Shown piece after piece: positions 32,058 through 34,282 of a stretch of 34,282 bases of DNA. Each line of letters starts with the position of its first letter. The stretch's first letter is position 1. Below the pieces are notes generated by a model. That model did not search any database and was not told the DNA's origin. It worked only from the letters and a program-made list of their open reading frames with translations. The stretch covers positions 1 to 34,282 of the forward strand of contig SVAX01000012.1 of assembly GCA_015059155.1 (NCBI GenBank), written 5' to 3'. Made by a program: the position numbers and the translations under genes. Source of the DNA: Bacillota bacterium. Lineage in GTDB: Bacteria > Bacillota_I > Bacilli_A > RF39 > UBA660.

Positions 32058-33050
32058 ATGATTATACTAACTAAAGCAGTGCTTGTAATGATGATTAGTT
32101 TGCTTTTATCTATAGTAACAGGTATAGTTTTAATACCTATATTAAAAAGATTAAAAGCTGGACAAAGATTAAGTGAATATTTAGAAGAAAGACATAAAAG
32201 TAAACAAGGCACGCCAACTATGGGAGGTTTAATATTTATAATACCTGTTATAGTTGTGATGTTGTTTATGTGTTTATTTGGTAAAATAAAATTTAATACT
32301 ACAATATTTATAGTAATATTTACTTTCTTATCTTATTCTTTAATAGGATTTATAGATGATTTTTTAATAATAAAAAGAAATAATAATAAAGGGTTAACTG
32401 AAAGTTCAAAATTTATATTACAAGTTGTAATAGCTATAATATTTTTTTATTTATTCATGAAAAGTGGTAATGAACCCTTACTTTGGATACATACTTTAGG
32501 AATAAAACTTGATATAGGTTTTTTATATGGATTAATTATATTATTAGTACTAGTATCTAGCAGTAATGCGGTTAATATTACAGATGGATTAGATGGACTT
32601 GCTGGTAGTTTATCTTTAATAGCTTTTTTTACTTTTGGTATTATTAGTTATAATACAGGGTGGCTAGAAGGATATGAAGAAGTGTCTTTGTTTTGTTTTT
32701 CTATATCAGGATCTTTAATAGGATTTTTACTATTTAATTTAAACCCTGCAAAAGTATTTATGGGAGATACAGGTAGTTTAGCTTTAGGAGCTGCTATGGG
32801 AGCTATTGCTATACTTACACGCCATGAAATATTATTAATATTAATAGGTATAGTATTTGTAATAGAAACTTTAACTTGTATAATACAAAGAGTTTATTAT
32901 AAATTTACAAAAAAAAGATTATTTTTAATGACTCCTATACATCATTCATTTGAGAAAAAAGGTTATAGCGAAATTGATATAGTAAAATTATTTTGTTTAG
33001 TAGGAATACTTTCTAGTATGGTTGCTATTATATTTGGTGTTGTTCTATAA
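32058..33050 (+). CDS. mraY: Phospho-N-acetylmuramoyl-pentapeptide-transferase
   Basis: MraY makes lipid I by moving phospho-MurNAc-pentapeptide onto undecaprenyl phosphate in the cytoplasmic membrane. The 330-aa, roughly ten-TM protein has the diagnostic motifs KSKQGTPTMGGLIF (about 48-60), Asp100-Asp101 (FIDDFLIIK), NAVNITDGLDGLAG with Asp176/Asp179, NLNPAKVFMGDTGS with Asp237, and the loop HHSFEKKG (295-302). It is complete. The murD that normally follows is missing; the next gene is an FtsW/RodA-type gene, so the division/cell-wall cluster is rearranged. The ribosome site is AGAGGG. Confidence 0.97.
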   Translation: MIILTKAVLVMMISLLLSIVTGIVLIPILKRLKAGQRLSEYLEERHKSKQGTPTMGGLIFIIPVIVVMLFMCLFGKIKFNTTIFIVIFTFLSYSLIGFIDDFLIIKRNNNKGLTESSKFILQVVIAIIFFYLFMKSGNEPLLWIHTLGIKLDIGFLYGLIILLVLVSSSNAVNITDGLDGLAGSLSLIAFFTFGIISYNTGWLEGYEEVSLFCFSISGSLIGFLLFNLNPAKVFMGDTGSLALGAAMGAIAILTRHEILLILIGIVFVIETLTCIIQRVYYKFTKKRLFLMTPIHHSFEKKGYSEIDIVKLFCLVGILSSMVAIIFGVVL

Positions 33051-33086
33051 TTTTGATAAATAAAATAAAATTATATGGGTGATATA

Positions 33087-34085
33087 ATGAAGAATAGAAG
33101 AGTAGAATTAACTTTATTAATAAGTGTTATTATAATATCTTTGTTTGGAGTTATTATGATTTATTCTTCATCATATGTATGGGCAGAGTATAAATATAAT
33201 GATCCGTATAAATATTTAAAGAATCAAGCTTTATTTTTTATTATAGGTATAATTTTAATGAATATAGTAAGTAAGATAGATTATAAAAAATATTTTAAAT
33301 ATTCAAATAAAATATTATTAGTATGTGTTGTTCTTTTAATACTCGTACTTATACCTGGTATAGGTACTGTTAGAAATGGTTCAAGAAGTTGGTTTGGTAT
33401 AGGTTCTTTTGGTATACAACCTAGTGAGTTTGCTAAATTAGGTCTTATAATTTTTACTAGTAAATATTTATCTAATAATCCCAATTGTATGAAAAATTTT
33501 AAAAAAGGAGTATTACCAATACTTTTGATAACCATAGGTATATTTGGGATAATAATGCTTCAACCAGATTTTGGAACAGGTACTATACTTGTTATGACTA
33601 TAATAGGATTATTATTTGTTGCTGGATTAAATATAAAAATATTTTTAAAGTTTGGTATAGTTGCTGTAGTAGGAGTAGTTGCTTTAATACTTGTTGCGCC
33701 TTATCGTTTAAAACGTATATTATCATTTTTAGATCCTTGGAGTGATCCTTTGGGGAGTGGATTTCAGATAATTCAAAGTTTGTATAGTATAGGTCCTGGA
33801 GGATTATTTGGACTTGGATTTGGCAATTCTATACAAAAACATTTTTATTTACCAGAACCTCAAACAGATTTTATATTTTCTATAATTTCAGAGGAATTTG
33901 GTTTTATGGGAATAATAATAATAACATTTTTATTTATAATAATATTTTATAATTGCCTAAAAATTAGTATGAAGTGTAATGACTTATTTGGCAAATATTT
34001 GTCATTCGGTATTACTTTTGGGCTTATATTTCAAACTATACTTAATTTAAGTGTAGTAGTTGGATTAATTCCTGTAACGGGGTAA
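33087..34085 (+). CDS. ftsW: FtsW/RodA/SpoVE-type SEDS glycosyltransferase, C-terminally truncated
   Basis: SEDS proteins polymerise lipid II into glycan strands. The reading frame gives 332 aa, preceded by GGGTGAT. Most of the fold is present: N-terminal TMs (MIYSSSYVWA), GSRSWFGIGSFGIQPSEFAKL (split after residue 110), QPDFGTG (159-165), LDPWSDPLGSGFQ, GPGGLFGLGFGNS, and the catalytic Asp261 in LPEPQTDFIFSIISEE. It stops right after VGLIPVTG (325-332). In the family this is followed by a conserved P-x-x-SYGGSS segment and the last TM; neither is present in any frame of the remaining 197 bases. The gene therefore looks cut by foreign sequence or rearrangement. FtsW, SpoVE and RodA cannot be separated firmly; position after mraY favours FtsW/SpoVE. 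Confidence 0.85.
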   Translation: MKNRRVELTLLISVIIISLFGVIMIYSSSYVWAEYKYNDPYKYLKNQALFFIIGIILMNIVSKIDYKKYFKYSNKILLVCVVLLILVLIPGIGTVRNGSRSWFGIGSFGIQPSEFAKLGLIIFTSKYLSNNPNCMKNFKKGVLPILLITIGIFGIIMLQPDFGTGTILVMTIIGLLFVAGLNIKIFLKFGIVAVVGVVALILVAPYRLKRILSFLDPWSDPLGSGFQIIQSLYSIGPGGLFGLGFGNSIQKHFYLPEPQTDFIFSIISEEFGFMGIIIITFLFIIIFYNCLKISMKCNDLFGKYLSFGITFGLIFQTILNLSVVVGLIPVTG

Positions 34086-34282
34086 ACACTGCTAGATAAC
34101 TGATTACGACAAACAAGTTTTTCCTTTATTTTAAAGGGTTTGCGAAGATTAAGTAAAATTTCATTAAATAAAAAAATTGATAAATTTAATAAAAATACAA
34201 AAAAATACAAAAAAATGCAGATAAAAATTAGGGGTAATTTTACCATTACTGCGAAAAAGTTATATTGAGCAATACCAAAGAT
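34086..34282. other. Non-coding sequence breaking the ftsW-type gene, up to the window edge
   Basis: There is no ORF and no ftsW 3' homology in these 197 bases. They are AT-rich with a directly repeated AAAAATACAAA unit near 34191-34210 and a possible weak stem (TTTTCCTTT with AAAGGG) near 34120-34140. This could be the left end of an inserted element whose coding part lies beyond the window; no terminal repeat or transposase is visible here. Confidence 0.35.

Follow-up and report, generated by a model that had tools for sequence, protein, structure and literature searches.

The window, that is, the whole stretch of DNA that was analysed, is a complete contig of 34282 b (contig C12 of genome G000), and the gene break described here thus lies at a contig end. 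The last open reading frame starts at 33075 or 33087 and runs to 34085, reading ...NLSVVVGLIPVTG before a TAA stop codon at 34083-34085, and the 197 b that follow (34086-34282) are not SEDS-like. The Pfam SEDS profile match of the truncated protein reaches position 327 of 356, and approximately 31 codons are missing from the cut gene, including those for the final helix and for the SYGGSS motif. The initial annotation had stated that the gene stops after VGLIPVTG and runs on into unrelated DNA, that its conserved C-terminal segment is missing and that the 197 b are of another kind, all of which is borne out. The features around the break are collected in Table 1, and the last of them continues off the contig. 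No intron or other RNA family in Rfam matches this left end of the inserted element, and a search of the rest of the genome for further copies of the 197 b, as had been suggested, gave only short, mostly AT-rich matches.

Table 1. Features at the right-hand end of the window (contig C12).
Feature	Position	Strand	Remarks
mraY, gene preceding spoVE (context)	32058..33050	+	in G001 and G003, an intact spoVE follows an mraY of 90-91% identity
spoVE 5' part, 332 codons, up to V-T-G	33087..34082	+	NCBIfam TIGR02615 (spoVE), 402 bits; missing end on contig C16
attL core GG, crossover point	34080..34081	+	joining attL to attR at ACnGG keeps the frame in 16/16 pairs
Left end of inserted element: attP right arm and conserved non-coding end	34082..34282	+	~77% identity over 204 b with the element ends of G216, G177 and G140

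Identity of the cut gene

The initial annotation took the gene for an essential ftsW, and this proved to be wrong. Namely, the NCBIfam spoVE profile gives the truncated protein its top score, ahead of ftsW (360 bits) and rodA (278 bits), and the intact orthologue in G001 lies above the NCBIfam cut-off for spoVE. What is more, the genome carries two further SEDS copies, both intact, of which the one on contig C3 is best matched as ftsW and the one on C8 as rodA; the window gene neither has FtsW as its top score nor is the sole such copy. Across 58 genomes of the family, spoVE was found in 42 of the 49 that carry spoIVA and in 2 of the 9 that do not (Fisher p=0.0003), the other 7 of the 49 being without a spoVE-grade match. 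Given the profile scores, the separate ftsW and rodA copies and the co-occurrence with spoIVA, the gene is a sporulation SEDS gene and not the essential divisome one: judged by these comparisons, the cut gene is spoVE, the sporulation-specific member of the group. In B. subtilis, spoVE is established as a mother-cell gene of cortex synthesis. Judged by its close relatives, among them Candidatus Faecisoma, the host falls within the RF39/UBA660-like Bacilli, an uncultured group, and RF39 is predicted to be spore-forming in a published survey (PMC10868615).

The second flank of the insertion

The missing 3' end, sought in the initial annotation as that of an ftsW-type gene, was located on another contig of the same genome, at G000:C16:25423-25524 (minus strand), where SEDS profile positions 322-355 (VTLPFLSYGGSS...) are found near the end of a 25835-b contig. 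Both junctions, on C12 and on C16, thus lie no further than about 0.2-0.3 kb from contig ends. The open frame upstream of the 3' fragment ends in ...DYMSLRIPTRDQITRLVDKVEIDKDKKIYVYLKFPELLIEN and a stop codon, and is 63-67% identical to the C-termini of the large serine recombinases (LSRs) that belong to related elements in G140, G198 and G009. In G001 and G003, from the same genus, mraY, an intact spoVE and the sortase gene of C16 share one contig, and it is for this reason that we take C12 and C16 to flank one and the same insertion. The central portion of the element in the window did not turn up in its bin, whose other LSRs share no more than 39% identity with those of the spoVE elements.

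As to those other LSRs, three different genes of about 600-650 codons each lie within 11 kb at G000:C9:107810-118630; they are unrelated to the spoVE type, with which they share 23-29% identity. At G000:C3:55595-56392, a 683-codon LSR gene is immediately upstream of the ftsW-like gene, on the same strand.

Recurrence of the cut

All RF39 genomes compared here are metagenome bins. Of 16 genomes in the host genus, 5 show spoVE interrupted at the identical point, and 10 have an intact copy. Among 30 further genomes of the family, foreign DNA follows directly after V-T-G in 18 genomes from 17 genera; as the reading covered these 30 only, chosen for weak or extra matches, the count of 18 is a lower bound. 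The same codon is consequently cut in at least 18 genera including the host genus, and the earlier remark that the break falls exactly at a conserved position holds well beyond the window: the break is no chance event, being shared by 4 more genomes of the genus and by another 17 genera. The element ends seen at the cut in these other genera are of at least five kinds, namely TATGCCCTTTTG, TAAGTCC/TAAACA, TATGCAAGAA, GTAGCATTTT and GTAATACTTCG. One further locus (L098, G204:C8:34000-38000) holds an intact spoVE with a second spoVE 3' end about 1.2 kb further on, which may be the remnant of an element whose target gene was repaired.

Anatomy of the elements and their att sites

Four elements are complete, with both junctions on a single contig: those of G009 (2.96 kb), G159 (7.9 kb), G140 (8.7 kb) and G198 (14.6 kb). 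Their order is attL, a conserved non-coding end of approximately 190 b, varied cargo, an ORF of 41-63 aa, the LSR gene and attR. The LSR is full-length in all four, and in G009 it has the Resolvase (PF00239), Recombinase (PF07508) and zinc-ribbon (PF13408) domains. The small ORF before the LSR is conserved in 23 of 37 LSR loci, shares a common core, G..L.EIL, and is a possible recombination directionality factor (RDF); it is not seen in the incomplete element of the window. A conserved AT-rich block is visible before it, in which a sigma-E/K promoter and background are indistinguishable.

The cargo includes genes for a CYTH protein, methyltransferases, NUDIX, radical SAM, UvrD-like and RelA-like proteins, several of them named by eye. 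As defence cargo, we considered the PADLOC matches (a methyltransferase, a UvrD-like helicase and a viperin-like radical SAM protein), and they are too general to make up a system. No phage structural genes were recognised, mostly by eye, in the ORFs of the four complete elements; nor did IMG/VR or phage records hold close phage relatives, the relatives of the LSRs in viral collections being at most 38% identical. A T-box leader (Rfam RF00230, 111.6 bits) was seen at L063:253-450 in G015.

The attB site is formed by the codons for the conserved motif V-T-G-V-T (GTnACnGGnGTnAC). When it is reconstructed as the left flank up to ACnGG followed by the right flank, VTGVTLPF is read in frame in all 16 cases with both ends known, the crossover core being GG and the third base of the glycine codon being supplied by the attR side. 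Inverted repeats in attP, assessed by ungapped shuffling, are significant only in G148 (p=0.0005) and G008 (p=0.03), and hence we draw no support from them.

Recombinases of the spoVE elements

In an LSR alignment scan with one genome per species (84,980 species), 80 loci were obtained. LSRs at least 43% identical to the query have 38 loci that are readable downstream, and all 38 are in spoVE. In particular, in 35 of these the spoVE 3' end is identified by motif within 400 b; in L181 and L182 it is present as GVTLPLMSYGGTS, as read from the sequence; and in an Erysipelotrichaceae bin (L188:2273-4523) the element is reversed, with its LSR end towards the 5' half of spoVE. In the LSR tree, a branch with support 99 separates the 37 spoVE rows from all others. 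The hosts of this LSR type include the Erysipelotrichales genera Massilimicrobiota, Thomasclavelia and Longicatena, and Massilimicrobiota sp. An134 (NZ_NFLH01000038, L182) is recorded as a strain and not as a metagenome-assembled genome. A single clade of recombinases has spoVE as its dedicated target, both in an uncultured gut order and in the Erysipelotrichales, with related recombinases located in spoIVA, cotE and cotZ.

Other split sporulation genes

The gene spoIVA is split near codons 120-128 (T-P-W) in G017, G036, G061, G066 (L128-L135), G107 and G251, and in G036, G061 and G066 an LSR of another family directly precedes its 3' half. Three genomes (G014, G107 and G251) combine a cut in spoVE with what appears to be a cut in spoIVA, although G014 shows the 5' half of spoIVA only. 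More distant LSRs end directly at spore-coat genes that are truncated, namely cotE (L190, L200 and L204, in all of which the first 36-38 profile positions of cotE are absent) and cotZ (L207 by Pfam and L210 by eye). We entertain, as a tentative idea that we would rather doubt than defend, that sporulation in RF39 could depend on several parallel recombinase edits of the mother-cell chromosome, with spoVE and spoIVA, as well as cotE and cotZ in relatives, each split by an LSR element of its own and rebuilt on schedule. If true, this would amount to a multi-locus somatic genome rearrangement within one cell.

Proposed excision during sporulation and its alternatives

The explanation that we consider likely is that a skin- or gin-like intervening element resides in spoVE and is excised in the mother cell during sporulation. 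According to it, the LSR of the element would have joined attP to attB within the V-T-G-V-T codons, with GG as the core. During sporulation, a small directionality factor, probably the product of the 41-63-aa ORF, would switch the LSR to excision, the LSR would cut the element from the mother-cell chromosome, restoring spoVE for cortex synthesis, and the forespore would keep the element. The precise insertion, the LSR end on C16, the recurrence and the in-frame rejoining are read from the sequence, and excision and its timing are what we infer. The initial annotation had listed an integrative element with precise excision among its options, and this one has become the best supported, with an LSR element placed exactly at the codon and flanks that rejoin in frame; its stated reason, that the SEDS gene is essential, does not hold.

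Could the element simply inactivate spoVE, its carriers sporulating badly or not at all and losing it by rare spontaneous events only? Excision has not been observed, in that no genome with the element also showed a restored attB or a circular attP; moreover, spoVE may be dispensable to some members of the family, as 7 of the 49 spoIVA genomes are without a spoVE-grade match, and conserved codons are in general common attB sites for serine integrases. That said, spoIVA is kept in all 25 genomes with a cut spoVE, whereas it exceeded the cut-off in none of 15 genomes chosen for lacking spoVE. Both halves of the gene are still open in the cut genomes, and their pN/pS, at 0.14 for the 3' fragment and 0.17 for the 5' part as compared with 0.22 and 0.15 in intact genes, shows no relaxation, although a recent insertion would also leave intact halves without any timed excision, which counts against our explanation. 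The small ORF is kept alongside the LSR, and the presence of elements in spoIVA, cotE and cotZ as well speaks for a preference for sporulation genes. All in all, we regard mere inactivation as unlikely. In two genomes the assembly itself offers a hint: the contigs of G147 end right at GG, and in G188 they share an overlap of 77 b and stop 3 b past GG. Such breaks may arise because attL and attB forms coexist or, equally, because strains are mixed.

The remaining alternatives are far less credible. An insertion in an essential ftsW, excised in all growing cells, would agree with the position of the SEDS gene next to mraY, but the top SpoVE score, the other copies that fit FtsW and RodA, and the absence of the gene from lineages without spoIVA make it extremely improbable. 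Much the same holds for a chimera assembled at a repeat, which the initial annotation had considered: both junctions are indeed close to contig ends, but homologous element ends meet the same codon in independent assemblies and four genomes have both junctions on one contig; the contig break is real, but we see hardly any chance of a mis-join. Removal from RNA, as a self-splicing intron or IStron, could account for the precise in-frame rejoining and the conserved left end of approximately 190 b. However, no group I or II match was found in Rfam at E up to 1-2, the complete G009 element included, and an LSR at the right end together with variable multi-gene cargo, in elements of up to 14.6 kb, fits recombination of DNA; we accordingly give this possibility next to no credence.

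Relation to known systems

Sporulation genes described as split in the literature consulted are sigK, spoVFB, spoVR, spsM, gerE, kamA and yabG, and the intervening elements, such as skin, gin, yin and SP-beta, are nearly all in mother-cell genes (PMC6957869, PMC5595907, PMC10747680). Closest in kind is gin in gerE of Bacillus cereus, a non-phage element, as the present ones also appear to be, whose serine recombinase likewise splits a mother-cell sporulation gene and whose small RDF, GirX, has a candidate counterpart here; it differs in its target, its size of 28.6 kb and its three recombinase genes, and its excision has been demonstrated both in sporulation and in vitro (PMC5595907). The skin element that interrupts sigK in B. 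subtilis and C. difficile resembles the present ones in that an LSR splits a mother-cell gene whose halves join in frame, with the RDF gene (in the present elements a candidate) near the recombinase gene, but it is prophage-like, and its excision and sigma control have been demonstrated (PMC5025042, PMC6957869). Finally, SP-beta in spsM, vfbin in spoVFB and yin in yabG share the SSR unit attL - rdf - int - attR within a split sporulation gene, the rdf being a candidate in the present elements; they are prophages or prophage-like, and none in these papers is in spoVE, spoIVA, cotE or cotZ (PMC4191935, PMC10747680, PMC6957869). A text search of the open-licence literature found no prior report of a split spoVE, spoIVA, cotE or cotZ.

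The spoVE element would be a further case of the known sporulation gene-intervening elements, unusual in its breadth, where the switches reported so far in sporulation genes are limited to a few genes, for the most part of Bacillus and species of the Clostridium type. With its many natural replicates, it lends itself to the study of why mobile elements pick mother-cell genes and of the smallest size that an excision unit may have (2.96 kb in G009), and recombinases whose att sites are known come with it. What is more, where sporulation is predicted from bins, split genes will be mistaken for lost or broken ones.

Inspected by eye, the DNA after other LSRs resembles cwlD (L219), a polysaccharide deacetylase gene (L209/L211), spoVAD (L224) and the gene for a collagen-like spore protein (L195/L206). 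In Clostridium bins (L226, L227 and L228), again by eye, the LSR is directly followed by the apparent 3' part of the essential gene valS.
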